From positions 1 to 34,832 of the forward strand of contig JAFSBM010000168.1 of NCBI GenBank assembly GCA_017437285.1: a stretch of 34,832 bases of DNA, in the 5' to 3' direction. Numbering within the stretch: the stretch's first letter is position 1; each line of letters begins with the position of its first letter. Source of the DNA: Ruminococcus sp. (GTDB lineage: Bacteria > Bacillota > Clostridia > Oscillospirales > Ruminococcaceae). Shown here piece by piece: positions 1,243 through 32,300 of the stretch. Made by a program: the position numbers and the translations under genes. The notes below the pieces were generated by a model, which did not search any database, had not been told where the DNA came from, and saw only the letters and a list, made by a program, of their open reading frames with translations.

Positions 1243-3102
1243 TTACTTATCTTCTTTAACCAAGCCGTAAGTCTGCTGTAATTTTGCTGCCTGTGCAGAG
1301 TTAATCTGTTTACCTATACAACTTGCAAGATATTCAGCCATTTCGTCTTTCGATGAACCTCTATTACTCATACGGCGGAGCGTTCCTGATACACTATAAT
1401 AACTATCGGTGAAGAGGTCTGAACCGCCCCATGTTTCATATTCTTTAGGGGTATATGTTGAGTCTCCAGTTATGGAATAGTCATAGCCACCGCCTCCAGT
1501 AGGTACGGCTGAAGGCTTAGGTGCAGGAGTAGGTGTAGGGTCTCCTGTCACGGGTGTATAGCCATTACCATCGCCGCCTCCGCCACCAGTTCCTTTGTTT
1601 CCTTCCGCTACCACTTTAGCAATAAAAGCCTGTGCTTCTGTTGTACTGATGCCAGCTTTAGCAAGAAGGTCAGCAGAAGGCATAATACCCATGCTGAGGA
1701 AATCCATCGCCTGATTATAAGCTTTGTCATAAGCGTCATTGCTATCAGCAACAGCGTCACGGTTAGCCTCATAATCAAACTTCTGCTGCCACTGGTCTCT
1801 TGCGATGTCATCCTGATACATACCGTAAGCAAAGTCTCTGTCATTACCCCAATAAGCCATATCATCTGTGTACTTGCCATACGCAAAGTCTCTGTCATTG
1901 CGCCAGTTATCTAATGTATCAAGGTATCTCTTGTACTCTGTTTCATCCATCTGCTGAACAAGTCCTAACTTATCTACCTTCATTTCAAAGTTATCAAGCC
2001 ACTTGTCATAAGCAAGGTTATAAAGCTCAGGTATAATATCTCCAAGCTGGGCGTTGTAGTAATTCTGCGCCTGATTAGCTGCACCAATAGCGTAACTGTT
2101 CATACCACCTGCTCCTGCTGCTGCGGAAGCGAGAGTATCATTCATCGCTCTCTGCCCTTCTCTTAAATACTGGCTCTTCATCTGCTGGTATAAAGGGTCA
2201 GAGTTCACATCATAAGAGAAATCCTCACGGGTCAGGATGTCATTAAGTAACTGTTTAACAGTATCATCGTAGTTGCTTGTGAATGTAGGCTGAGGCTCGC
2301 TGTAGTTGTATGTAGGCTTTGCTACATTCCAGTAAAAATCACCGCTATCAGGCGTATTAGTAAGTCCATATCCAAGCTCAAAATACCCTGAACCATCAAC
2401 GCCGCCTGAATATCCGTACTGCTGTCGAATAGCCTCTGCTGCTTTGTGTGCGGCATCCATGCCTGCTTTGTCCCCGTTTGCCTGTGCTATCGCATACTGA
2501 TTTTTATAGTAATTGATGTCATTTAAAGCGTTAGTGTTTTTTATTCCACTATCATTGTATGTTCCTAAGGGAGTGTAGCCCTGCATGGTTGTTACACCGT
2601 TGTTATTGCTGTAATAGTTATTACCAGCCTTATAAGCCGCCGCCTCGTCATTTGATATATAGTCATAAATACCTGCGCCAAGGTCTGTAGTTGGTATTTT
2701 ACCTCCACCATACAAAGTAATGTTTTCGTTTAAGAATCTGTTAGCCTCATTTGCATTTACATAAGAAGGAGCTGTTATCGCCCAGCTAAGGTCATCTGTT
2801 ATACCGTTCTGATTAGCGTATTCAACCCAGTTATCGCCTGCAAAGGTATAAGTGTTACCGCCTTTTGTCTGTGCTGTTGTTGCTTTTACACCGTTTTTCG
2901 GGCTTTCGTATGTTGTTGCTATAGGTTTATAGCCTGTACTGCCATCCACACGGTTATTGCTACCGCTGTACCTTTCTACGCCGTTGCTATCAACGTATGT
3001 GTCATCGTCATCATCCTGTGGATTTGCTTTTTTGTTCCCATAACCTGAGTAAGCAAAAAGCTGTAAATCCACTTCAAGTAACTTAATTTTGTCTGTGTTC
3101 AT
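1243..3102 (-). CDS. Virion protein with Prp-type cleavage motif, ejection/tail candidate
   Basis: A 619-residue protein starting with ATG at 3102 behind GAGGTGAT. Residues 11-17 read VDLQLFA, the same kind of N-terminal motif as the capsid protein, and match the sequence Prp removes from ribosomal protein L27; cleavage after Ala17 is predicted. The N-terminal half is rich in Asn, Tyr, Gly and Asp. Residues around 300-470 are Gln/Ala-rich and helical, with a duplicated unit (NDRDFAYGxYxDDxAxW) near residues 394-430. A Gly-rich and Pro-Thr linker lies near 500-535. Similar proteins occur in the tail region of Clostridia prophages without a proven role. Its place beside the giant polyvalent gene suggests an internal or ejection protein. 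A tail component is the alternative. Confidence 0.75.
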   Translation of the reverse strand: MNTDKIKLLEVDLQLFAYSGYGNKKANPQDDDDDTYVDSNGVERYSGSNNRVDGSTGYKPIATTYESPKNGVKATTAQTKGGNTYTFAGDNWVEYANQNGITDDLSWAITAPSYVNANEANRFLNENITLYGGGKIPTTDLGAGIYDYISNDEAAAYKAGNNYYSNNNGVTTMQGYTPLGTYNDSGIKNTNALNDINYYKNQYAIAQANGDKAGMDAAHKAAEAIRQQYGYSGGVDGSGYFELGYGLTNTPDSGDFYWNVAKPTYNYSEPQPTFTSNYDDTVKQLLNDILTREDFSYDVNSDPLYQQMKSQYLREGQRAMNDTLASAAAGAGGMNSYAIGAANQAQNYYNAQLGDIIPELYNLAYDKWLDNFEMKVDKLGLVQQMDETEYKRYLDTLDNWRNDRDFAYGKYTDDMAYWGNDRDFAYGMYQDDIARDQWQQKFDYEANRDAVADSNDAYDKAYNQAMDFLSMGIMPSADLLAKAGISTTEAQAFIAKVVAEGNKGTGGGGGDGNGYTPVTGDPTPTPAPKPSAVPTGGGGYDYSITGDSTYTPKEYETWGGSDLFTDSYYSVSGTLRRMSNRGSSKDEMAEYLASCIGKQINSAQAAKLQQTYGLVKEDK

Positions 3103-3507: not shown

Positions 3508-5061
3508 TTACACCTCGCTTCCAACGTAGAAGTCACGCACAAAGCTCTTGATTTTACAGTATCCTTTGCCTGTCAGCCTTACTTTAAAGCTGTCACAGCG
3601 ATTAGGATGTATCGGCACAGTGATAGTCTTAGCAGCCTTGTTATGCGTTGTATAAACCTCTTTCCATCTCGCATTGTCTGCCTTAACTTCAACCTTAAGC
3701 CAAGAACCTTCATCAAGCTCAAGCCTCATGCTCATTCTTGAGTAGCCCTTCCTCTCGTTCACCGTCTCATTAAACGGGCAGAAGGTAGCCATCCAGTTTA
3801 TCTCTTCATCGTTTGTATCATTTTCTACAGACATCTTGTAGAGCTTTCCGTCATCGGCAACAAAGTATAATCGCCCTTCAACATCGGCAAACTGCAGCGC
3901 TTTTGTGTTATCTTCCTTAAGCCATAAGTTACGCATAACATCATAAACAAAGATGCCTCTTTCATCGCCGCTTGTCATAGAGATGTAGTATTTATCTCCG
4001 TCACTTCCAGCACATCCGTCTGCAAAGCGCTTAGTACCAAAGTTTGTACTTATAAGCTCAGGAATACCACCAGTGAAGGCGTATACGCCGTTCCTGCCGA
4101 GGTAGTAAAGAGTCTCGTTTATGATGCACATACTCCTCTCACAGCCTTCCTGAACGCCAAATACGCTGCTGTTCATAAGCTGATAGTTAGAGGGCTTGGT
4201 GCCGTAGAGCTTGTGCAGTACATCCTCTTTAAAGAAGCAGATATATGACGAATAAGGTATACACCCTGTCCAAGCGCCATCGCTGCCAACCTGAATAAAG
4301 TAACTGTCACCTGCGCTGTTATCCACCGTCTGAAAGTTAAGAGGGTCGCTGTACTTACTGCCGTAAATCGTATCACCTGCACAGCCCCAAAGACGGTAGT
4401 TGCTCTCGCAAACAAACTCAAGGTCAGGTATGGGTCTTTTTATAGTGATAACGCCTGTCTCTTTGCCATCCGTAAAGCTGTTTTCATAAAACTTAAGCAC
4501 TTTGCCATCAACCTCACGAACAATAATCGTCTGATTGTTCTCAGGATTTACTGTGCATCCGCTTATCTCAAGACCGTCTCCAGCTCTGAAGTTAAAGTCA
4601 GCTCCCGTAGTAGTGATTGTGGCGTATTTCTGCCCGTCTCCTGAGCTTGTTGATGCAAAGGTAATCTGTCCTGCACCTGAGGTATAAACCTCTTCCATAT
4701 CGCCAAATACCTTGCTATCCACGTTGTAATACTTCTTGTCAGGGAAGATAACAACATAGTTGCCGACAGCAGCCATCTGTTTACGCCCTTCTGTTACCGT
4801 TCCTACGTTCTCGCCGTTATGCAGTACCCTTGTACCGTCTATAACGAAAAGCCCTGCCTTTGAGAAGAGAGTTGTAGGACTGATATATTCAGACTCTCTC
4901 GCCCTCTTTTTCCTCTGTGTCATATAGGGAAAGTCATCGGTAGAAAGGTTAAGGCAGTCCTCAAGCTCTCCGCCTCTTGTCTGTGCGCTATAGTTAAGAC
5001 CGAGGAAATTGATTATGCTCTGTCTTGATTTATTGTTTTCAATTAACTGTGGTAATCTCAA
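3508..5061 (-). CDS. Beta-rich tail hub / DNA-stabilisation-like protein
   Basis: 517 residues. The start is a TTG at 5061 with GGGGTGAT placed correctly upstream; no nearby ATG gives the conserved N-terminus MRLPQ. The sequence is dominated by short beta strands with repeated YxxxG/WxxG patterns (LYYLGRNGVYAFTGG, YYISMTSGDERGIFVYD, LYFVADDGKLYKM), suggesting a beta-propeller. Phage proteins of this shape in short-tailed phages form the tail hub or plug that stabilises packaged DNA (P22 gp10 type). Homology to gp10 is inferred from architecture and genome position, not from a diagnostic motif. It lies between the adaptor-like 121-residue gene and the ejection-protein genes, consistent with a hub at the tail base. 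Confidence 0.6.
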   Translation of the reverse strand: MRLPQLIENNKSRQSIINFLGLNYSAQTRGGELEDCLNLSTDDFPYMTQRKKRARESEYISPTTLFSKAGLFVIDGTRVLHNGENVGTVTEGRKQMAAVGNYVVIFPDKKYYNVDSKVFGDMEEVYTSGAGQITFASTSSGDGQKYATITTTGADFNFRAGDGLEISGCTVNPENNQTIIVREVDGKVLKFYENSFTDGKETGVITIKRPIPDLEFVCESNYRLWGCAGDTIYGSKYSDPLNFQTVDNSAGDSYFIQVGSDGAWTGCIPYSSYICFFKEDVLHKLYGTKPSNYQLMNSSVFGVQEGCERSMCIINETLYYLGRNGVYAFTGGIPELISTNFGTKRFADGCAGSDGDKYYISMTSGDERGIFVYDVMRNLWLKEDNTKALQFADVEGRLYFVADDGKLYKMSVENDTNDEEINWMATFCPFNETVNERKGYSRMSMRLELDEGSWLKVEVKADNARWKEVYTTHNKAAKTITVPIHPNRCDSFKVRLTGKGYCKIKSFVRDFYVGSEV

Positions 5062-11394: not shown

Positions 11395-12651
11395 TTAGTT
11401 GCTGGGACTGTCAAATGTAGAGCAAGTCTCGATACGAACCATGTAAGGCTCAACAAGTCTTTCTGCTGTCTTTGTAAGTTTCCAGCCTACTGTTGCTCTC
11501 TGATTCAATGCATCCGCCGTTCCGGCTGAACCAAGCTGTTTAACGATGTGCTGTAAGCCACCGCCTTCAATCTCTGTTGTGCCGTATGCGTTGTCACCGA
11601 GGATAAGTGTTGAGTAAACAGCTCTGCCGTTTGCACCGCCACCTACTGTTGCAATAGCGGCGCCTGATGCTGCTGAAACAGCTACGTCAACAACGATTAC
11701 AGCATTACCTGCTGCGCCTGCTGTTGCTGAAAGGATTGTTACAGGGTTTGTAACTCCTGCGATAGTAACCTGTTTACCAGCCATTCTGAACGCCTCGTCT
11801 GCTGTGATAGCCTCAGCTACAGGGATGATGTTTGTCTCTGTAACCACAGCTTTTGTTTTTAATGAAGCAGCCGCTGCTGTAAGGTTAGAAGCTTTGAAGA
11901 TTTTAGCCTCTGTTGACTCTACGAAACGAACACCAGCGATTTTGCCGATTTCGCCTGCGTACCAGTCCTCAGGGTCATAGTCTTTAACATCTTTCCATGC
12001 AGGGTCACTCATTAAGTCATAAGAGATGTCGGGATGAATAATAGCTACATAGCTATCACCGATTTTCTCTGCGTTCTGATTTTTAAGTGTTCTAACAGCT
12101 CTTCTGATAGCATCAACTGTGAGATAGTGATTGCCTGTCTCCTGACCGCCTGTGAGCTGCGCTCTTGAGCTAACCTGTCCTTCTGCGTACTGTACGTTTG
12201 TACCGCCGTTAAGAACCTCTCTTGTGATAGTGTCAGAAGTCTCACCAGCCTGTTTACCAAGAAGCTTAGTAGCCTGTACTAAGTTGTTGTCGATAGCTGT
12301 GAGTAAGAGCATATCAGAAAGTGTAATGTAAGCACCGTACTGACGAACCTCTGAACGAATTACGCTCATTGTGAGTTTCTGTCCGTCAGGAGTTACACCC
12401 TCTGTTAAAACTGTTAAAGCTTTAGGAAGAGGGTCATATTTTCTGAACTCGATAATCTTACCGCCGTTTTTAGGGATAGGATGTTTCTGCCCAAACTGGT
12501 CATGTACGAGTTTAGGGCTTGCCATGTCGATAAGATAATCGCTGTAGAAAACTTTCATTTCATCTGAAAGTCCGCTGTCTGTAGTTACGTTTGTGTTTGC
12601 TTCAGCAAAAAGCTGTAAGTCAATAAATCTTAAATCTAATAATTTTTCCAT
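11395..12651 (-). CDS. Major capsid protein, N4-gp56 family, with Prp cleavage motif
   Basis: 418 residues; ATG at 12651 behind a full AAGGAGGT site. It forms the icosahedral shell. Family features include YYSDYLIDMASPKLVHDQFG-type N-terminal sequence, GGKIIEFRKYDPLPKALTVL, LTEGVTPDG, and TAIDNNLVQATKLLGKQAGE, typical of the N4-gp56 capsid family. Residues 10-16 read IDLQLFA, so Prp-type removal of the first 16 residues is predicted. Residues about 255-345 are an Ala/Val/Gly-rich segment (TIAGVTNPVTIL ... GGGANGRAV) that looks like an inserted surface domain. It is preceded by scaffold and followed by a structured spacer that may stabilise this abundant message. Confidence 0.9.
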   Translation of the reverse strand: MEKLLDLRFIDLQLFAEANTNVTTDSGLSDEMKVFYSDYLIDMASPKLVHDQFGQKHPIPKNGGKIIEFRKYDPLPKALTVLTEGVTPDGQKLTMSVIRSEVRQYGAYITLSDMLLLTAIDNNLVQATKLLGKQAGETSDTITREVLNGGTNVQYAEGQVSSRAQLTGGQETGNHYLTVDAIRRAVRTLKNQNAEKIGDSYVAIIHPDISYDLMSDPAWKDVKDYDPEDWYAGEIGKIAGVRFVESTEAKIFKASNLTAAAASLKTKAVVTETNIIPVAEAITADEAFRMAGKQVTIAGVTNPVTILSATAGAAGNAVIVVDVAVSAASGAAIATVGGGANGRAVYSTLILGDNAYGTTEIEGGGLQHIVKQLGSAGTADALNQRATVGWKLTKTAERLVEPYMVRIETCSTFDSPSN

Positions 12652-12679: not shown

Positions 12680-13699
12680 TTAAAACTTAATAATCTCGCC
12701 TCTCGCTGCTCGTCTTGCTATTTCCATCCTGTCTGCTTTAGTCAGTTTGGAAACATCGTTTTTGATGACAGCACTACTTGAGGAAGATGTTCCGTTCTCT
12801 GAGGGCCTTGCGGCTTTACTCTTAAGCTTGGCTACGGTATTCTGCTCCGCTTTCTGTGCGGCTACTCTCGCTGCACCTGTTAAAAGCTCGTTCATGTGTA
12901 TTACCTCGTAAGCTGTCTGCATAGCGATGCCGTTCTTAAGCATCTTTGCAAATTCAGGGTTACGAAGCTCGTTCTTAATATTGAAATCAGGGTATATCGC
13001 CTTAACAGCCTCACCCTGTCTTACCCATTCGCCAATCTGTGCGTTAGCCTGCTGCTGTCCAATAGCCTGCATCTGCGCCCTTTTGAACGCCTCGTTCTCA
13101 CGCTGGAGCTTCTGTACTGTCTTGTACTGCTCAACCGTCAAGCCTGCCTCTTCTGCGGCTTCTTCCCAATAAGTGTCATCTTTGTCTATAGCCTGAGTAA
13201 GCTTACCTATGTCACCGTCTGTAATCTTGTATTTGCTCATAAGCATGTCAATTACAGGCTGCTGTCCTTTAAGCTGTGCCTCAAGATTCTTCGTCTCTTT
13301 GAATCTGCGGTCAATGATGCCCTGAGTCCTCTCTGTGAACATATCTTTGTATTCACCTGAGATAAGCTCCTCAAAGGCAGCTCTCTTAGCATCCAAAGTA
13401 TCAGAAGATGTGGAAACATCTGTTGTGCTTCCTGTTCTACCCTCGGCGGCAGGGTTTACAGTATCGGCATCCTGTTTGCCGTATACCACGTTACTTAATG
13501 CGCCCGTACTTTTTCCTGAACGGCGGCTGCTTCCGTTCCTTTTAGTTTCAGCCTGAAATGTTGTACTCTGTGTGCTTGCATCTGCTCCTGTTGATGTTGA
13601 ACCAGCGCTATCGCCACCTCCTACGGCTGCTCCGCCACCTGCGGCAGCACCTCCGTCAAACATCTTAAGATTGATGTCACGCAATTTAAACTGATACAT
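12680..13699 (-). CDS. Capsid scaffold protein with Prp-like N-terminal motif
   Basis: 339 residues; ATG at 13699 behind AAGGAGGTAC. It should direct procapsid assembly and then leave or be degraded. Residues 9-15 read INLKMFD, related to the IDLQLFA of the capsid protein. Residues 16-110 are disordered and rich in Gly, Ser, Thr and Ala. About 105-290 is helical and charged (KRAAFEELISGEYKDMFTERTQ ... LQRENEAFKRAQMQAIGQQQ), typical of scaffolds, and the C-terminus is basic (KLTKADRMEIARRAARGEI), fit for binding the capsid shell. Position between protease and capsid genes agrees. It lies 28 bp upstream of the capsid start. Confidence 0.8.
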   Translation of the reverse strand: MYQFKLRDINLKMFDGGAAAGGGAAVGGGDSAGSTSTGADASTQSTTFQAETKRNGSSRRSGKSTGALSNVVYGKQDADTVNPAAEGRTGSTTDVSTSSDTLDAKRAAFEELISGEYKDMFTERTQGIIDRRFKETKNLEAQLKGQQPVIDMLMSKYKITDGDIGKLTQAIDKDDTYWEEAAEEAGLTVEQYKTVQKLQRENEAFKRAQMQAIGQQQANAQIGEWVRQGEAVKAIYPDFNIKNELRNPEFAKMLKNGIAMQTAYEVIHMNELLTGAARVAAQKAEQNTVAKLKSKAARPSENGTSSSSSAVIKNDVSKLTKADRMEIARRAARGEIIKF

Positions 13700-14019: not shown

Positions 14020-14337
14020 TTATTTATATCTGCTGGTGTCCACGCTGATATGCTCAGGGTAGCTCTTCTCAAGCTGTAAAAAGCCTATAACAGCCATATT
14101 GAACGCCGTTTTGACTATCTTCTTATCACCCACACAGCTTATCTCCAGCTCTCCGCTTCTCTCGATAGTGTCCATATCACTTACTGTAGGGCAATTCTCA
14201 AGAAAGCCTAAGAGCGCATAAGCAAGTGATGAAGCTGCTGCACACACAATGTCATTACCCTTATTAGAGTAGTTTGCGTGTCCGTTCATGCTAAGCTCGT
14301 ACTCGTTACCACTTAAACTGAATACTATCTCAATCAT
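14020..14337 (-). CDS. prp: Prp-type ribosomal-processing cysteine protease homologue
   Basis: 105 residues; its ATG (14337) overlaps the portal stop (TAATG). Prp in Bacillota removes the N-terminal extension of ribosomal protein L27. Here the catalytic pair is visible: His20 in NGHANYSNKG and Cys32 in NDIVCAAAS, with the same 12-residue spacing as the catalytic His and Cys of host Prp. Length is that of the family. It sits where head-maturation proteases usually lie, between portal and scaffold, and three virion proteins carry N-terminal L27-like motifs. It therefore very likely processes capsid, scaffold and the 619-residue protein. Whether it also processes host L27 is unknown. Confidence 0.88.
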   Translation of the reverse strand: MIEIVFSLSGNEYELSMNGHANYSNKGNDIVCAAASSLAYALLGFLENCPTVSDMDTIERSGELEISCVGDKKIVKTAFNMAVIGFLQLEKSYPEHISVDTSRYK

Positions 14338-16325
14338 TAAGCACCAGCTCCTCTGTTCATATCTGTCTTAGCCCTTGAAGCTAATCTCTCACCGTAGTTT
14401 GTCATATTGGCTGTCTGAGCGTTTTTCTGCGCTGCTGCCTGTGTATCATGGCTTGCCTGTCTCTGAGGCTGAACCTGCCTTCCGCCCTGTATAGGCTGCA
14501 TAGGTAACGCCTGTCCTGTAAGCTGGGCTATAAGCATGTTCTGCTGCTGTAACTGAGCTGATAGCTGCTGCACTACATTAAGAAGAGTCTGTCCCTCCTG
14601 TACCTTCTGTCTTACTTTGTCATCACCATCAAACTCCATCATATCAAGGCAAGTCATAGCAGGTTCTGCTCTCTCAGGCTCAAACAAGCCTAAGCCGTAA
14701 AGCTCTTTAGCAAGCTCGTTCTGTGCCATACGGCTATATGCGCTCCTCTTCTGAGGTTTAATAACAACATCAAATACGGGTACTCTTGTTGCCTCCTGAT
14801 AATTAGGGTCAAGCTGCTGTCCTGCAAAGGCAGGGTCAAGAGGAACGCCCTGAATACGGTCATTGCTGTACTGGATATATTCAAAAGCTCCCTGTTTACC
14901 AATGATACGGAAGCTGCGGTTTTCATCGTAGAACTGCCTGATAAGCTCGATAATGAGGTGATTAAGCTTTGTATAGCTTCTGTATGATGCAGCAATCATG
15001 TCACGGCTTGTCTTATTACCTGCTTCCTGCAATGCAGCAATGGCAGCAGCAGCCGTTACGCCACCACTTGAACTACCCTGTGAGAAGTCCCTGTTAGAGC
15101 TTGTCTCCTTAAGTTCGTCAATCTTCATCTGTAACACATCAAGTACACCTGAAGGAAGAGAAGGCATTGTAATGGGTACAAGCCTTTCATCGCTTATCTG
15201 TCCCTCTACATGAACGATAGGCTTTGACCAGTCAAGGAACTCCTCTTCATTAACGCCCATACCGTTCTTAGCAAAGTAACGAGGCTTAGCACCCATAATC
15301 GTATTCTCAAGCACAACCTGTGAGAGCTTATCAATATACATCTGAGGGTCTTTCATAATGCTTAAATAGCCAAAGCCATAAGGTGTACCAGCCTCAGGGA
15401 AGAGAACATCAAATACGATAGGGTACTCGCCGTGTTCATACCATCCGTTAGGATAGTTCTCAGGCTCGTTCTCTGATGCAAAAAGGACTTCTCCGGCAAC
15501 AAACTTGCAGTAATGAAGCACAGTCTTATTGCCAACAGCCTTTTTGTAATACCAGTCAACAACAACACTTTTATCACTTGTATCAACTGTGTCATCATAC
15601 ACATACTCTTTTACATCAATTACCTTGCCACCAAGCTTGCCCTTGAGCTGAGGGTACTGCTCCTCAAGTAAGTCTGTGTCAGCAAGAGCTACGATAAAGA
15701 GGTTACGGCTATCCTGAATGTCTGTGATGCCACTCTCCCAAAAGAGGTTAAGTATATCAAGCTCTTTAATGTTTATATCTCCTAAGCCGTTCTCAAGGCT
15801 ATTATCCCAAAATACGCCGTAGGGAGTTGTGCCATGCTTAAGCTTGTACCACCAGCCGTTAGAATATGTTCCTTCAAAGTTGTTACGCTCAAGAATAACA
15901 GGGATGATAGAGCTTAATACATCTGCATCCTTTTCATCTGACTGTTCTCTTGGTAATACGTTAGGCTCAGGGTAGTTGTCCATAGCATCAGCATGTTTAT
16001 TAGCAAGGGAATTGAATAACCACGCACTTGTAGGCTCAGGTCTATCATCACCTGCTGCTCGTTTGCCATCTGTATTAGCTCCACCTCTTACAATGTCCCA
16101 ATGCCTGAGCTTATACCATTGCTCATTCTCAACGATGCGGCTCTCAAGGTTGGACTTGCCTTCCTTATACTTCTGAAGAATGTTTACCGCCTCTTCAATC
16201 TCGTTTTTACCTATGGCTTTAAGGCTACCACTTGTCACTTCCTCACCGATGCCTGATACCTCCTGCTGGTCAATGGCACTTTCTGTAGGCATGCCTAAAG
16301 CCCTCTTTAAAAAATTTTCAAACAC
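14337..16325 (-). CDS. Portal protein
   Basis: 662 residues; ATG at 16325, 17 bp after the large terminase stop. Portals form the dodecameric DNA channel at one capsid vertex. Supporting features are ENEQWYKLRHWD and PTSAWLFNSLANKHADAMDNYPEPNVLP-type N-terminal sequence, KHGTTPYGVFWD, GEYPIVFDVLFPEAGTPYGFG in the wing, SQGSSSGGVTAAAAIAALQEAGNKTSRD in the crown-stem part, and a long Gln-rich C-terminal helix (QQLSAQLQQQNMLIAQLTG), the barrel found in short-tailed phage portals. Neighbours are large terminase upstream and protease, scaffold and capsid downstream, the usual order. Confidence 0.9.
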   Translation of the reverse strand: MFENFLKRALGMPTESAIDQQEVSGIGEEVTSGSLKAIGKNEIEEAVNILQKYKEGKSNLESRIVENEQWYKLRHWDIVRGGANTDGKRAAGDDRPEPTSAWLFNSLANKHADAMDNYPEPNVLPREQSDEKDADVLSSIIPVILERNNFEGTYSNGWWYKLKHGTTPYGVFWDNSLENGLGDINIKELDILNLFWESGITDIQDSRNLFIVALADTDLLEEQYPQLKGKLGGKVIDVKEYVYDDTVDTSDKSVVVDWYYKKAVGNKTVLHYCKFVAGEVLFASENEPENYPNGWYEHGEYPIVFDVLFPEAGTPYGFGYLSIMKDPQMYIDKLSQVVLENTIMGAKPRYFAKNGMGVNEEEFLDWSKPIVHVEGQISDERLVPITMPSLPSGVLDVLQMKIDELKETSSNRDFSQGSSSGGVTAAAAIAALQEAGNKTSRDMIAASYRSYTKLNHLIIELIRQFYDENRSFRIIGKQGAFEYIQYSNDRIQGVPLDPAFAGQQLDPNYQEATRVPVFDVVIKPQKRSAYSRMAQNELAKELYGLGLFEPERAEPAMTCLDMMEFDGDDKVRQKVQEGQTLLNVVQQLSAQLQQQNMLIAQLTGQALPMQPIQGGRQVQPQRQASHDTQAAAQKNAQTANMTNYGERLASRAKTDMNRGAGA

Positions 16326-16342
16326 TCACTCTCACCATCCTT

Positions 16343-17770
16343 TTAATACTTTCTCATAAACGCATATCTATCTACTTTCATATCATCAGTGCTTAACGGG
16401 TCATAAACCTGTGCCACACGTTCTTTTACCATTACAGGCTTCATAGGATTCGCCATACACATATATCTCGTCTCATCCGCTATATGGTCTTCCTGCTTGG
16501 TGTCTACATCCTCAGGCTTATTCTCGTCATACAGCAATGTCGGTATTGTCCTGATAAATCCTTTACAGTTAGAGAAGATATACATCATCGGTATGCCCTC
16601 TTCGTCAAACTGTAAGCGATAGTGCATCTGCATCCAGCCTGCAAGTCTCTTATGGTCTCCTTTATCGAAGTACACGCCATACTTCTCTGCGGTCTCGGCA
16701 ATACTCTCGCCATGCGATGCTTCCCATATAGCAGGGTCAGCTACACCCTGTATGTTCTTTCCTGCAAGCCATCTATGCTCGTTCTCTATTCTCTTAATCT
16801 CCTTGAATATCTCATTTGGAGACCAGCGTAAACCTGTGTCAGGCTCATCCTTAACACAGCCATAAAGCTCTAATATCCTGTATAGCCTGCCATCATAGTC
16901 AACAGCCCACCACGCACATGAAAAGGGCTTAGAGTAACCAAAGTCAAAGCTCCTGTATATCCTCCATGTAATAGGTATCTCAAACGGCGCAATTACATGG
17001 GTATTCTTCCTTGTATAGTAGTTTGTTTCGTCATCCACAAACTCTTCAAATACGGCGCCGCCATCTATACCCCAGTCACCCAATCCAGCTACCTTATAAC
17101 GCTTAGGATTGTTCTTCTTCATCATCTCAAACTTCCTAAGGTCAGCTTCATCTAACCACTCATTGCACATATAGTTTGTGGTCATTGCCAGTATGTCAGG
17201 GTCAGGGTCTGCATCAAAAAACCTCTTCTTAAGCCAATGCGTTGAACTCCACGGGTTAAAGGTAATCGTAATCTGCTTGAATAAGTAATCAGGCATATCG
17301 CCTCGTATAGACTCGTCAAGCATATCGAAGTCCTCTTCGCTATCTATCTCATAGGCTTCCTCTATCCACATCCAACAAAGATAACCTTTAGGAACGGAGA
17401 TAGATGCTATCCTCTTTGAGTCATCCAAACCTCTGAAGTATACGAGCTGTCCTGTGGGCTTATATTTAGCCATCAGAGGGCTTAACGTAAAATCCCATAG
17501 ATGATATACCCCAAACCTCTGTGCAGCCCATTTCAGGTCAGAATAGCAGCTATCCTTAAGGGTATTGAATACCTTACGCACTACAACAAGGTTTGCATCA
17601 GGGTACTTCATCAGGTTATAGATGTACCACAAAGCAGTGGTCTTACTCTTCTTAGATGCTCGGCTGCCCTTGCACACCCTGTAACGCCCTGTGTAATGCC
17701 AGTAAGTAGCGTAACCGCCACCGACTATATCCGGCAGATAAATCTTAGTCCCTAAGCTCATCTTCGCCAT
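16343..17770 (-). CDS. terL: Large terminase subunit, PBSX-type
   Basis: 475 residues; ATG at 17770 after AGGTGAT, overlapping the small terminase gene by 26 bp. It is the ATP-driven packaging motor and DNA-cutting nuclease. The ATPase domain shows KGSRASKKSKTTALWYI (residues 33-49), a Walker A loop in which the usual GK is replaced by KK as in many PBSX-family members, and Walker B YLCWMWIEEAYEI near 128-140. ITITFNPWSSTHWLKKRFF follows. The RNase H-like nuclease domain has SFDFGYSKPFSCAWWAVD and GVADPAIWEASHG with the expected acidic residues. Packaging mode (cos or pac) cannot be read. Confidence 0.93.
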   Translation of the reverse strand: MAKMSLGTKIYLPDIVGGGYATYWHYTGRYRVCKGSRASKKSKTTALWYIYNLMKYPDANLVVVRKVFNTLKDSCYSDLKWAAQRFGVYHLWDFTLSPLMAKYKPTGQLVYFRGLDDSKRIASISVPKGYLCWMWIEEAYEIDSEEDFDMLDESIRGDMPDYLFKQITITFNPWSSTHWLKKRFFDADPDPDILAMTTNYMCNEWLDEADLRKFEMMKKNNPKRYKVAGLGDWGIDGGAVFEEFVDDETNYYTRKNTHVIAPFEIPITWRIYRSFDFGYSKPFSCAWWAVDYDGRLYRILELYGCVKDEPDTGLRWSPNEIFKEIKRIENEHRWLAGKNIQGVADPAIWEASHGESIAETAEKYGVYFDKGDHKRLAGWMQMHYRLQFDEEGIPMMYIFSNCKGFIRTIPTLLYDENKPEDVDTKQEDHIADETRYMCMANPMKPVMVKERVAQVYDPLSTDDMKVDRYAFMRKY

Positions 17771-18197
17771 TTATAATCACCTGCTTCATGCCCTCAAGGT
17801 CAAGGCTCTGCTTCTCACGCCATCCTTCAAAGTTATTCGCAAGGCTAAACTTAGCCCCGTTTGAACCCTCCTTGTCGAATAGCCTCGTCTCTGCATACTC
17901 CTCAACTCTGCTCTTCGCCCGTGTAATCGTGTCATTGAACTCATCCTTACCCTGATAGTTTAATAACGCCTGCCTGCTTGCAAATCCCAGCGCAAGCGCA
18001 AGCCCTGTCACAGTAGGAGGCTTAGGCTGAACCTTATATATAATCACGCCCTTATCAGTAAAGAAAGGCTTTCCTTCCTCGTCAAAATAAGGCTCACCCT
18101 CACACAGCTCAAAATATTCCTCTATTTTTTCTTTCATCTGCTCCACCGTCTTATACATAGGCGGACAGCCTACTTTCTTCTTTTCTTTCTCTGCCAT
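17745..18197 (-). CDS. terS: Small terminase subunit
   Basis: 150 residues from ATG at 18197, preferred over an in-frame GTG three codons upstream because AAGGTGAG is spaced correctly for the ATG. It recognises phage DNA for packaging. Typical elements are GCPPMYKTVEQMKEKIEEYFELCEGE, then TGLALALGFASRQALLNY (helix-turn-helix), FNDTITRAKSRVEEYAETRL, and GAKFSLANNFEGWREKQ near the C-terminus, a layout shared by small terminases of PBSX-type systems. It is the first late gene, about 50 bp after the tandem terminators that end the early operon. Confidence 0.88.
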   Translation of the reverse strand: MAEKEKKKVGCPPMYKTVEQMKEKIEEYFELCEGEPYFDEEGKPFFTDKGVIIYKVQPKPPTVTGLALALGFASRQALLNYQGKDEFNDTITRAKSRVEEYAETRLFDKEGSNGAKFSLANNFEGWREKQSLDLEGMKQVIINGEDELRD

Positions 18198-18247
18198 AAA
18201 ACTCACCTTCTTTCATCGGCTACCAATAGCAAATCACAAAACCAAAT

Positions 18248-27874: not shown

Positions 27875-27946
27875 CTGCATGAAAGGATGTGAGGCTTACA
27901 AGAAATAATGGGAAGCAACCAAGAATAACATAAGGGAGAGATGAAA

Positions 27947-29005
27947 ATGAGCCGCAACGGGAACGGCTATGGAAGCTGCCACAAGATAGGCGGAAAAGTA
28001 AAACGTGCAAAGCCCTTCCGTGTCAGGGTAACGGATGGCTGGGAATGGGATGAAGGAAAACAGAAAGCAATACAGAAGTACAGAACGCTCGGTTACTACG
28101 AGTCACGCAAGGAAGGTTTGATAGCTCTTGCAGAGTACAACAAGAATCCTGCTAAACGAGGCACAGCAGAGCTTTTGTTCTCTGACCTCTATAAGTTATG
28201 GTTTGAAAACAAAAAGCCTGAAGGACAGGCTATGAGAGCCTACAGGAACGCTTATAATCAATCTGCTGCATTACACAACATGAAAGTCAAAGACATTAAA
28301 GCTGAACATCTTGAAAGCGTAATGAACAGCGTAACTGTAGGAGTAGCTGGTCAGAAGATACTCAAGACATTTTGGAATCAGGTTTTCGATTTCGCCGTAG
28401 GCAGAGACATCATTCACAAGAACTATTCAAAGATGGTGAGAACCAAAGATAAAGATAGCCGCACCTCTTCTCGCCAGCCGTTCACAAAAGAAGAGATACA
28501 ACTACTTTGGGATAATGTAGATAAAATTGAACACATTGATGCAATCCTTATCCTGATTTACACAGGCATGCGCCCATCTGAATTATTAGGAATACACAAA
28601 GATAATGTGTATTGTAGTGAACGCTACATGATAGGCGGTATCAAGACTGAAGCCGGAAAGAATAGGGTTATACCTATCCATAAAAGTGTATTACCGTTCA
28701 TTGAACGTAGGTTACAATCCTCAGACTACCTTGTATGTGACTCTGAGAATCCAAGCGAGCCTATGAGTTACGATTTTTTCAGAAGGCATTGTTTTGTACC
28801 TGTTATGAAGGCTTTAGGGCTTGAACACACAGCCCATGAGTGCCGCCACACAGGAATATCACTAATGACTATGGCAGGCATAGACGAAAGACTAATCAAG
28901 AAGATAGTCGGTCATAGTAGCGGAGACATAACCCAAAGATATACTCACGCCTACATTGAAACACTTGTTGAAGCCATCGACAAAGTTGATTTGTGTGTAT
29001 TGTAA
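27947..29005 (+). CDS. int: Tyrosine site-specific integrase
   Basis: 352 residues from ATG at 27947, eight bases after AGGGAG; an ATG two codons earlier is only two bases from it. The enzyme integrates and, with an excisionase, excises the prophage. The N-terminal part (residues 1-60, KPFRVRVTDGWEWDEGKQKAIQKYRTLGYY in blocks) is an AP2-like arm-binding domain. A SAM-like core-binding domain follows to about 165. The catalytic domain shows Arg209 (YTGMRPSELLG), Lys in GGIKTEAGKNRVIPIH, HxxR at His297/Arg300 (AHECRHTG), a GHSS motif and nucleophile Tyr332 (ITQRYTH). All key residues are present, so it looks active. Confidence 0.95.
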   Translation: MSRNGNGYGSCHKIGGKVKRAKPFRVRVTDGWEWDEGKQKAIQKYRTLGYYESRKEGLIALAEYNKNPAKRGTAELLFSDLYKLWFENKKPEGQAMRAYRNAYNQSAALHNMKVKDIKAEHLESVMNSVTVGVAGQKILKTFWNQVFDFAVGRDIIHKNYSKMVRTKDKDSRTSSRQPFTKEEIQLLWDNVDKIEHIDAILILIYTGMRPSELLGIHKDNVYCSERYMIGGIKTEAGKNRVIPIHKSVLPFIERRLQSSDYLVCDSENPSEPMSYDFFRRHCFVPVMKALGLEHTAHECRHTGISLMTMAGIDERLIKKIVGHSSGDITQRYTHAYIETLVEAIDKVDLCVL

Positions 29006-29306: not shown

Positions 29307-32300
29307 TTATTTTCCGAAGTACATAATGTAGTCATCGTCCTTTTTAACAGACGGGTACTCTGTGCCAAGTAAGAATAAATATTCCTTGTAATTGTCACAT
29401 GCAGAACTGAGATACCTTTCAATCTGTTCTCGCCTGTCTTTACCTGTCATGCTCTCCATTTCCATAACAGCACTTAAATACAATTCGGCGGATATTCCGT
29501 ACTCCTCTGCTTCCTTTGCACTTTTACGGGAATAACGGTTAGTGAATAACTGGTATATTTCATCATCGGTAAAGTCTCCCTCAAGGAGAATATCGACAAT
29601 TTCAACCTGATTTACTTTTCCGTCATCGCCTGCCATAGATACCTTCGTTTCATAGTCAACCATTTTATCAAGAGAAATATCGCCATACTTCTCATAGTAT
29701 TCGGTTTCCTTAGCGCCGATTCTTGAAAGCACCCTGTTTGCAGCCTCTTCCTGTGCAAGTTTCTTTGCTGCCTTTAATACGGCAGCCTTTTCTTTGTTGC
29801 TGCTTGCATAATAGAAGTTTTCCTCTACCGCTTCCCAATAGATGCGGAGATAATCGGTCTGATACTCAGCGTACTGTATATCGGATAAGCTGTGCTTATT
29901 TCCGTTACCGTCAGTTACCGTTGTACCCATAACAGAAGGAAGGTATTCTGTGCTTTTCATTTCATAGCACAAATCATTTACTGCTGCTTGTGTTTCAGGG
30001 AATGTGCCGTTGTCATCTACCTTGCGATACTCAAACATCATATCAAGTACCGTCTGACGAACACCACGCCTTAATTCGGTCTCAGGCTTATCTTTCGCAA
30101 GTTTATAGTAGCGAGAATAGAACGTTGTCATGTTGCTGTCTAACTTAGCGATGATAGCTTTATCCATATTGTTAGGGTCGCTGGCTTTAGCTTTTGCCGA
30201 GGCATCCGCTTTATCATACATCCAGTCAATTATATCTGTTGAATACTGGTTGTCTTTAATGTATGTGCCACGAACACCTAAAGTATAGTCCACGTTTTCA
30301 CCGCCAACAGGGAATAACGCCTTCTGATACTTCCACCAGCCGCCTAAAGTCTGCTGGAAGAAATAATCTATCTGCATAGGGCTTGTATTGAAAGCCTGTC
30401 CCAACCAGTAAGCAATCTTGCTTGTGCGGCTTGTATACTGGTCTTTCGGTTCTAAGTTCTGCAGGCTGCTTGAAACAATAGGATTTCCGAGGAAGTCTCT
30501 GTTTGCTCCGAGATAGCCTACAACGCCTATTATACCGAGGTTGCCTACAATCGCCATGCCTGTTTCAGTAAGTCCCTTCTGTCCCACCTGAGCAACGTCT
30601 GAAGCTACCGCAGGCAAGAAGTTGTCTGTTGCATATTCGTAGAACTCGTCAAAGGCGTGAACATTCTCGCCTATTCCGTATTCCATGCAAGTCTCAAAGA
30701 ATGAGCTTAACACGCCGATTTCCCTCGGCTTAGGTATTGCAAAATACTTACCGTCTCCTAAAGGAATGTTCCAAAAGCTGTTTTTCTGATAGTTGGAAAG
30801 CTGCTCGTAGTCCTTCTCCTCTTCATCGTCTCCGTTGTTAAGAGCATAAACTATTGCAGCGAGTACAGCACTGGTCACAAGATAGGAGATAGTTCTTGAG
30901 CGAATAACCTTAGCACGTTCAAGTTTTCCTGCATCCTCTGCTGTTATCCAACGGCGGAACTTATCAAGACCCTGTACCGAGGCATTAAAGAACGGAATTA
31001 TCTTGTTTAATTCACGAGATACACGTCCTCCACGCCTAAAGTTTACGGTAATATCCATAGCACCATAGAACGCTTCCTGAGGCTCTACGCCTGCTTCACG
31101 CAGGAGCTTATATGTTGCAAAACGAGGACCCGACTCAATGAGGCTGCTTATAAATGCAATCCAGTCAAGAGGATTTGCGCTAATCTTCTTACCTGCAAAG
31201 CTCTTTCTCGCACGTTTCGCAAGGTCTCTGTCTGCTGTGTATGCACTCACAGAGCCACCACCCATCGCAAGGAACTCACGATAGAGAGGGTCAACATCTT
31301 TGCCAAGTGAATTGTTTACCTTGTTCACATAAGTGCTACCCATTGAGCTGAACAGCTTTAAGAGGTTTTTATTCTTTGAGTATGTGAACAGGGTCATCAT
31401 GTCACGAGGGAAGTTTGAGAACAGCGACCATATAACGTTGTTGCCTGTAATGTTAGCTGTCATAAAGCGGCTTGCAACGGCATACGCATCGAGGATGCCC
31501 TCCATCGCTTTTGGTGACATAGTAGTTATTGATGACAACAAGAGAGGGTCATTGATTTTCCAAAACTCCGGCTCACCATTTTTTAATACTGTAATTACAT
31601 CACCATACGCTTTACCTCTTCCAAACTGGAGGAGTATGTCATCAATGCCACTTACGATTTCATCAGCAATTATCTGGTCATCTACCTTCATGTTGCTGTT
31701 TTTGATTTTCTCGCTCAAGTCTACCTTCAAGCCTGTTATATTCATTTTTGTGGCTTTCATCGGTGTAGGTACTTTTTCTAAGAAAAGAGCATCCGCACCC
31801 ATCATTTCAGCAGCGTTTGTAATGGTACGCATAACATTGTTTCTTGTACCTGCATTTACTACTCTTACGATGTTGTTAATTAAGTTATCCACAGGATGAA
31901 TGAAGTCAAGACCGCTGCCTCTCGCTTTTTTAATTGTGCTGTTCTGATTTGCAAAACCACGTTTAGCACCGATGCGGTTTTTATCGCCTACATCACGGTT
32001 TAAGGGAACGTAGTATTCCCAGCGTTCGCCCCAGCCATCAAGCGTTTCCTGAGAAATCAAGCCAGTATCTACAGCCCATGTGTTGTAGAAATCTTTGATA
32101 AACGTATAAAGTCTATCGGCTGCTGCTTTAAACTCAGGATGCTGCTCTTCAAGCTCTGTTGCCCTACGCTCCATAAATGCTGTAGAGTTCTTACGGTCAT
32201 CCGCAAACACACGCAAACCTTCTGCAAGGCGTTCAGGACCATGTTTCACTACAAGGTATTCACCGAATAAACGGTATTCGTTTTTATCTTTAAGGTTAAT

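Follow-up and report, generated by a model that had tools for sequence, protein, structure and literature searches.

Among the closest described systems are phages whose structural proteins are processed by the Prp of their host. According to PMC5744158 and PMC9405229, the capsid and scaffold proteins of phage 80alpha carry an N-terminal F↓A tag and are cut 13-14 residues from their start by the Prp of Staphylococcus aureus. As reported in PMC5744158, cleavage of the 80alpha capsid and scaffold is dispensable and an intact scaffold N-terminus is required; it also calls unclear why structural proteins of staphylococcal phages should be processed by a ribosomal protease that is essential. The same source places a Prp motif on the major tail protein of Staphylococcus phage phi13, where the presumed enzyme is again the host Prp.

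Other phages carry a prp gene of their own. In Enterococcus phage phiFL3A, Brochothrix phage BL3 and Oenococcus phage phi9805 the gene (annotated as 'peptidase') lies just downstream of the portal gene, both scaffold and capsid are tagged, and the major tail protein appears as an extra substrate. The literature on phage-encoded Prp that we found comprises a review of SaPrp, the work on 80alpha and otherwise short or unrelated mentions; PMC8987985 and PMC6893505 were also consulted. No account of Prp/tag co-evolution was found in the open literature searched.

The locus studied here shares with the S. aureus/80alpha system the protease family and the N-terminal tag on capsid and scaffold, but differs in that the phage encodes the enzyme, has a head of the N4-gp56 type and bears a third tag on a tail-block protein of 619 residues. 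Siphophages of the phiFL3A/BL3/phi9805 type differ from it in their unrelated head, long tail and lack of a tagged 619-aa protein, and phi13, with a tag outside the head as here, differs in tail type. The nearest relative, IMGVR_UViG_3300010283_000416 (L004, L116, L440), has a capsid 87% and a Prp 66% identical to those studied here; its capsid and scaffold are tagged, whereas its homologue of the 619-aa protein is not.

The window, i.e., the whole analysed stretch of 34,832 nucleotides, is contig C158 within a 4.13 Mb genome of Ruminococcus sp. Its ends are identical over exactly 141 bases (1-141 and 34692-34832), and because of this overlap we regard it as a circular molecule of 34,691 bases. 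The head genes are transcribed in the order terminase small subunit, terminase large subunit, portal, prp, scaffold, capsid (Table 1). The large polyvalent protein comes after the 619-aa gene: its 2,208-codon frame spans the circular junction, with the N-terminal part at 1-1227, and no Prp tag was detected in its first 120 residues. Jointly with the processing scheme set out below, it is likely that the window represents a circular temperate phage genome with an N4-gp56-type head, probably short-tailed. Rfam and tRNA searches gave no match, and a promoter scan found no more sites than in shuffled sequence. A second prophage fragment of 12.45 kb (L105; G000:C70) was revealed in the same genome. 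It contains the same tail block as the window, with homologues of the 517-, 128- and 619-aa proteins followed by a large open frame, and is free of both tag and Prp.

Table 1. Features of the window considered in the analysis
Feature	Position	Strand	Basis or remark
619-aa tail-block protein	1243..3102	-	Core at about residues 270-370 conserved, N-terminal part not conserved
Prp tag VDLQLF↓A of the 619-aa protein, residues 11-17, predicted cut after Phe16	3052..3072	-	Matrix score
517-aa virion protein, tail block	3508..5061	-	PHROG 511 'internal virion protein', 3e-64
Major capsid protein, N4-gp56 family	11395..12651	-	NCBIfam TIGR04387 308.9 bits (cut-off 60); PHROG 1357 major head protein
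Capsid Prp tag IDLQLF↓A, residues 10-16, predicted cut after Phe15	12604..12624	-	Motif score
Scaffold protein	12680..13699	-	Place and size; PHROG 13908, no assigned function
Scaffold Prp tag INLKMF↓D, residues 9-15, predicted cut after Phe14	13655..13675	-	Motif score
Phage-encoded Prp cysteine protease, 105 aa	14020..14337	-	PF04327, PHROG 4478, PDB sequence matches
Portal protein (P22-like), directly upstream of prp	14337..16325	-	PF16510 101.1 bits
Terminase large subunit	16343..17770	-	PF04466 178.9 bits
Terminase small subunit	17745..18206	-	PHROG 606, 3.2e-27
Tyrosine integrase	27941..29005	+	PF00589 72.5 bits
Large polyvalent protein (LPD38), C-terminal part	29307..34691	-	PF18857 105 bits

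The initial annotation had assigned the 105-residue frame with its His20/Cys32 pair to the Prp family, and this assignment was confirmed. The minus-strand frame matches PF04327 (Cysteine protease Prp, MEROPS C108) with 57.9 bits at a curated cut-off of 27, PHROG 4478 'peptidase' at 1e-20 and, at the sequence level, two Prps of known structure, 4peo/7kld and 2g0i; used as a single query in the viral scan, the protein gave no matches. Its key residues are Gly19-His20, Gly27, Asp29, Cys32 and Ser36, with His20 and Cys32 12 apart. In this stretch it aligns without gaps with 4peo/7kld, and all six residues are invariant in the 20 phage Prps of our alignment A2, which were chosen for their long loop. 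The counterparts in SaPrp are the hinge G21 before the catalytic H22, G29 and D31 of the loop, the catalytic C34 and S38 (PMC9405229). Against the NCBIfam equivalogs of ribosomal Prp the phage protein reaches at best 53.9 bits at a cut-off of 171 and remains below cut-off in 11 of the 11 models matched. Nor does its gene lie beside a gene for long L27, the position by which cellular Prps are recognised; in this genome the L27-adjacent Prp is another gene, on contig C219.

Tags were scored with a 7-position matrix trained on 43 distinct capsid tags of relatives; the training set included the window's own capsid tag (found also in L059), whereas the scaffold and third tags were outside it. The capsid tag scored 21.1 bits, that of the 619-aa protein 20.4 and that of the scaffold 15.2, which are ranks 1, 2 and 3 among 21,491 positions in window ORFs of at least 60 aa. 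The next-best position scored 12.6 bits and has no start codon near it. The initial annotation had placed the three motifs at the same residues as in Table 1, and the scan upheld them as the best three matches in the window. The view that the tags are chance matches was rejected on these ranks and on the number of matches expected for the third tag (about 8e-5, see below).

The substrate motif [N/D]LQ(F/L)F↓A near the protein start is fitted by the capsid and by the 619-aa protein, and the scaffold (INLKMFD) fits only a looser phage form. The scaffold tag is the weakest of the three, with Lys for Gln at P3 and Asp at P1'. Scaffold and capsid tags of the same phage are often unlike, the scaffold having Asp, Asn or Ser at P1', and the window follows this pattern. 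In the viral loci, 77 of 80 capsid homologues show a tag-like N-terminal pattern. Scaffold tags of at least 10 bits were found in 27 of the 37 clusters of relatives with Prp and were missing at that level in 10. A 'scaffolding protein' is annotated at the same place in phages LuckySocke and StenR_269.

We consider it likely that these genes form a phage-encoded set of protease and substrates that would trim the capsid, the scaffold and, most likely, the 619-aa protein. The phage would make its own Prp endopeptidase from a gene between portal and scaffold, and the enzyme would cut N-terminal tags of the form [N/D]-L-x-x-F↓A/D behind their Phe, shortening the capsid protein by its first 15 residues and the scaffold by its first 14 during head assembly. 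The same tag now heads the 619-aa protein, of which Prp would most likely trim the first 16 residues. Enzyme and tags would be a pair, for the most part moving and changing jointly and not necessarily dependent on host Prp or host L27. The enzyme and the three tags can be read directly from the sequence, as can the association of tags with Prp across phages and the singularity of the third tag; that Prp cuts, that it cuts all three proteins and that the 619-aa protein belongs to the virion, we infer. Against the scheme stand, among other points, a scaffold tag that differs from the published motif in its P3 and P1' residues, the lack of the third tag in all homologues examined, and both the clustering on the tree and the exceptions to the associations described below.

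The 619-aa protein had no match of its own in Pfam, PHROG, NCBIfam or PDB, no solved relatives of its family were found, and as a single query in the viral scan it gave no matches. A Shine-Dalgarno-like site and a spacing of 15 bases from the gene upstream support the assigned start of its gene. Judging by its place, between the genes for the 517- and 128-aa proteins on one side and that for the large polyvalent protein on the other, it may be a tail or ejection protein of the virion. The conserved core is common to 16 viral loci, 17 loci of other genomes and the second prophage fragment of the same genome, and a scan with a profile of the core gave 46 viral loci, overlapping with the first 16, of which 31 are distinct and one is cut at the N-terminus.

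With Gln at P3 and Ala at P1', the third tag belongs with those of capsids. The probability that a random 7-mer reaches its score is 6.5e-8, and about 8e-5 N-terminal matches of this score are expected by chance, assuming 45 genes with 27 N-terminal positions each. No other position with a score of at least 17 lies outside the capsid/scaffold region among the 709,291 positions of 81 sequences scanned, many of these sequences being too short to reach the tail block and 16 containing a homologue of the 619-aa protein. None of the other homologues in the overlapping sets of 16, 18 and 46 has the tag. That of the nearest relative (L004), also untagged, begins MASITVTSSQRKK, unlike the protein of the window. 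The possibility that the tag is an old feature of the family was rejected for the homologues examined, all of which are untagged.

At the DNA level the third tag is identical to the capsid tag in 17 of 18 positions, with dissimilar flanks, and the five codons shared by the two have a probability of 0.027 from codon usage alone; this gives weak support to the tag being a copy. The same near-identity, codon usage notwithstanding, and the lack of the tag in every homologue examined would be compatible with a reading in which only capsid and scaffold are processed and the third tag is a chance match or a very recent neutral copy that stays uncut. We regard this as unlikely. The expected number of such matches is very low, the tag starts at residue 11, a usual distance from the start, with the Gln at P3 and Ala at P1' of capsid tags, other phages tag a tail protein or, once, the portal, and a good N-terminal site would probably be cut in a cell that makes Prp. 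We read the third tag as a singular, recently added substrate site in the tail block. As to the third substrate of the initial annotation, the tag itself is clear, but it is lacking in all homologues examined, and the term 'ejection protein' derives only from the position of the gene.

To see how enzyme and tags are distributed, we compared loci with related capsids. In the N4-gp56-type relatives the prp gene usually lies beside the portal gene, upstream of scaffold and capsid. It was present in 67 of 80 viral loci, and 11 of the 13 misses have less than 1.75 kb of upstream sequence; the two with more are L006, without Prp and tag, and L054, with a tag and no Prp in a contig of 10.6 kb. A wider table combined loci from four viral scans with seven named phages and the window itself, 80 of 498 confirmed loci being used from the viral Prp scan, and capsids with at least 2.5 kb upstream were clustered at 90% identity. 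Of the resulting 86 clusters, 65 had both Prp and tag, five Prp and a sub-threshold capsid N-terminus (INLQLMT, LRLNLFN, LDLQWFN, ISLAVFD and SILDLFN, the last with -2.1 bits), 15 neither and one a tag without Prp. Since 31 of the 65 clusters came from the search with Prp itself, the table was also counted without loci from that query (34, 3, 15 and 1, respectively). All 16 clusters without Prp were rechecked with no limit on frame length. The 15 clusters with neither are not independent, because eight of them are Pony-like and six are phages of distant kinds or hosts. In Pony, API480 and LuckySocke, which belong to the capsid family of the window and have no Prp between portal and scaffold, both scaffold and capsid are untagged.

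Prophages in bacterial genomes gave a similar picture with more exceptions. Fifty-eight clusters, drawn from the 76 of 78 loci with 2.5 kb upstream, comprised 37 with Prp and tag, four with Prp and a sub-threshold capsid N-terminus, 10 with neither and seven with a tag without Prp. Two loci, L262 and L313, were counted here as Prp-bearing: the profiles missed the strongly divergent Prp of L262, which was recognised by eye, and in L313, as in L222, capsid and scaffold are tagged and the prp gene lies about 19 kb from the capsid gene, not beside the portal. In L308 a divergent Prp-like gene was found and no tag. Among relatives without Prp nearby, the tag is absent in 15 of 16 viral clusters but in only 10 of 17 prophage clusters. 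The comparison of relatives with and without prp, proposed in the initial annotation as a check, is less clean for prophages than for viral loci; the claim that protease and tags form one set holds in that the two mostly occur together (65 of 86 viral and 37 of 58 prophage clusters).

A tag without Prp nearby was detected in 10 of the 76 prophage loci, i.e., in a group of seven and in L261, L265 and L312. The group of seven (L316-L320, L323, L325) has the capsid tag LDLTLFD or a similar one, no Prp within the sequence examined (the capsid lying at about 10000) and no scaffold tag where the scaffold was read. In five of the seven genomes there is a second Prp, which in the three checked is on a contig other than that of the capsid. 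No portal was seen just upstream of the capsid in L316, L319 and L325, and a gene upstream in L319 resembles, by eye, a spore germination protease gene. These loci are possibly decayed or domesticated heads.

On a tree of 64 capsids at least six changes are needed for Prp and at least five for the tag; only two to six independent pairs can be drawn, with which a sign test is unable to reach significance. The tree was built after removal of the short L162 and L163, of every second tagged row with Prp and of the five clusters without Prp that are most distant (LuckySocke, Y3, StenR_269, BS162P1 and Kumquat). The sequence comparison points to a kit, in which enzyme and tags for the most part move and change jointly. 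In comparative terms this is well supported, with the exceptions given above.

According to PMC9405229, in SaPrp with substrate the P3 glutamine holds a flexible loop through Gly29 and Asp31. We compared the form of the loop between the catalytic His and Cys with the P3 residue of the tags. In the first 37 viral clusters with readable enzyme and tag, Gln occupied P3 in 15 of 15 cases with the canonical loop and in 3 of 22 with other loops (Fisher 9e-8). With all viral and prophage clusters included, Gln stood at P3 of the capsid tag in 41 of 43 clusters whose enzyme has the canonical His-Cys loop, the exceptions being L267 and L271 (LDLTLFG), and in 11 of 48 with other loops; with the shortest loops (His and Cys no more than 8 residues apart) it was found in none of 14. 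In prophage clusters alone the rule is weak, with figures of 7 of 9 against 7 of 22 (p 0.04). Gln at P3 with the canonical loop would be expected if it contacts Gly29 and Asp31 of the loop. On the first tree, loop form and P3 need only three and four changes, so that relatedness may explain much of this association. In sequence terms, P3 Gln tends to go with loop form, but there are exceptions and the independent changes are few. The generalisation from viral loci alone, namely absence of the tag in most relatives without Prp and P3 Gln in every case of the canonical loop, was weakened by the prophage counts.

It should be noted that phage Prps with a short loop (8 instead of 12 residues from His to Cys; L038, L039, L057, L064, L070 and others) form a class not found in the sections of PMC9405229 consulted. 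The enzyme of L040 has an odd loop, and His stands at P1 in both its scaffold and capsid tags.

These data also bear on whether cutting is the function of the tag. The tag might instead be a signal for assembly or folding that binds Prp or a chaperone, with cutting incidental. Such a role would agree with 80alpha, which needs an intact scaffold N-terminus and not its cleavage and in which capsid cleavage is dispensable (PMC5744158), and with the loci that keep a capsid tag and have no Prp gene nearby. By analogy with 80alpha, a tag can persist for a reason other than cleavage, and the coupling of head and ejection-protein maturation put forward in the initial annotation is a possible role. On the other hand, both the retention of the catalytic pair in the aligned phage enzymes and the tendency of P3 to follow loop form fit selection for cutting, and we hold a mere signal to be distinctly unlikely.

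The host of the window has its own Prp beside a gene for long L27 (contig C219). The host L27 begins MFKISMQFFAHKK, and its site, ISMQFFA, scores 3.9 bits as compared with 15-21 for the phage tags. We looked for L27 in 58 genomes among those of the 78 prophage loci and found it in 48, with a readable start in 46. In seven of the 46 genomes L27 starts at MAHKK and has no cleavable extension. Five prophages in such hosts keep Prp and tags (L262, L309, L315, L326, L329), and three are without both (L256, L257, L258). One of the five, L326, belongs to a Faecalibacterium prausnitzii genome; its Prp lies on the same contig of 985 kb, and a further head locus of this type carries a second Prp. The other short-L27 genomes are metagenome-assembled, with mis-binning possible. 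A Pfam search of whole genomes was negative for Prp in the case of L256, L258 and L262; in the genome shared by L257 and L329 it gave a single match, below cut-off, with the loop of the L329 enzyme.

The retention of Prp and tags where host L27 is short implies that phage Prp probably serves phage proteins. The idea that it is mainly an L27 protease was rejected for the same reason, and the suggestion of the initial annotation that the enzyme might act on host L27 found no support in a host that has its own Prp beside L27 and an L27 site unlike the phage tags. A phage Prp directed mainly at host L27, altering the ribosome, would accord with the family, which is named for L27 processing (PMC9405229). 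We consider this extremely improbable: short-L27 hosts still have Prp-bearing phages, prp lies upstream of scaffold and capsid in most loci, the host site scores far below the phage tags, and the protein is far below the cut-off of every ribosomal-Prp equivalog matched.

The converse arrangement, with cutting by the enzyme of the host and a superfluous phage copy, would be open to the phage of the window, given the Prp beside L27 in its host. It would have a precedent in a clade with no Prp of its own within the sequence examined (L054, L261, L265, L312), whose tags are nearer to the L27 of their hosts. The L261 scaffold tag LNIQLFA equals the L27 site of its host, L312 has LNIQRFA and LNIQHFA, and L265, with FNLQHFA, is less L27-like. 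The only Prp in the L261 genome is beside L27, the L312 genome has two copies, each beside an L27, and the L265 genome has an additional Prp with the loop of the enzyme of another prophage, L303. The tags of this one clade fit the use of host Prp, as in 80alpha. For Prp-bearing phages, redundancy of the phage copy seems highly improbable to us. Of the 32 prophages that encode Prp themselves and whose hosts have a long L27 with a readable start, none has a tag 7-mer equal to that of the host L27, Prp-bearing prophages persist where host L27 needs no cutting, and the L27 of the window's host reads ISMQFFA. The proposed freedom from host Prp is supported by the prophages of short-L27 hosts, in the sense that such phages need not depend on it. 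Overall, the observation of the initial annotation was confirmed and its interpretation supported in part.

In many Bacillota phages, the comparison suggests, Prp works specifically on the virion, through tags of its own and independently of L27. A broader, tentative hypothesis, which we put forward as possible rather than probable, is that phage Prps have radiated into co-evolving pairs of protease and tag that are orthogonal in part. With a shorter loop, Gln would no longer be needed at P3, phages that drop their Prp would lose the tag or drift toward that of L27, and the tag would be portable, being added to new virion proteins such as the 619-aa protein here, the portal in L176 and the major tail protein in siphophages. 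If so, one enzyme would mature head and tail-block proteins in one particle. The comparison supplies sets of enzymes and substrates for work on specificity, orthogonality and origin, and the simple N-terminal tag would let further virion substrates be read from sequence.

In this connection we analyzed, with the same score matrix, nine Prp-bearing siphophages with unrelated heads: phiFL3A, PLgT-1, TP712, TMW 1.1365 P3, BL3, Krappator27, phi9805, phiS11 and DO134P1. They are part of longer overlapping listings (16 and 31 records, many of them duplicates), phiS13 being among those left out. The gene slightly upstream of prp is named portal in seven of the nine; in TP712 and DO134P1 the neighbours are unnamed, and scaffold, capsid and tail proteins were assigned by gene order. 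The scaffold is tagged in all nine phages and the capsid in eight, DO134P1 having the variant LGLQVFT. The major tail protein has a tag of more than 11 bits in five of the nine and a weaker one in TMW 1.1365 P3 (TDLQKFA, 8.5 bits) and, by eye, in DO134P1; none was found on that of PLgT-1 and TP712, and the MuF, neck and tape-measure proteins scanned were untagged. A substrate outside the head module, as initially claimed, is consistent with the tag on the 619-aa protein, but is less novel than supposed: tagged proteins outside the head are not new in kind, being present in phi13 (PMC5744158) and, clearly, in five of the nine siphophages.

Weak N-terminal tag-like matches of 9.6-12.3 bits were also detected in genes other than capsid and scaffold (L133, L134, L257, L268, L280, L296, L325), possibly by chance. 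In L176 (7935-10000), a phage with its own Prp, the portal-like protein starts MNLQLFAQPTEED and has the strong N-terminal tag MNLQLFA, while its capsid N-terminus is the variant INLQLMT. The tag on this portal would be an addition comparable to that on the 619-aa protein.
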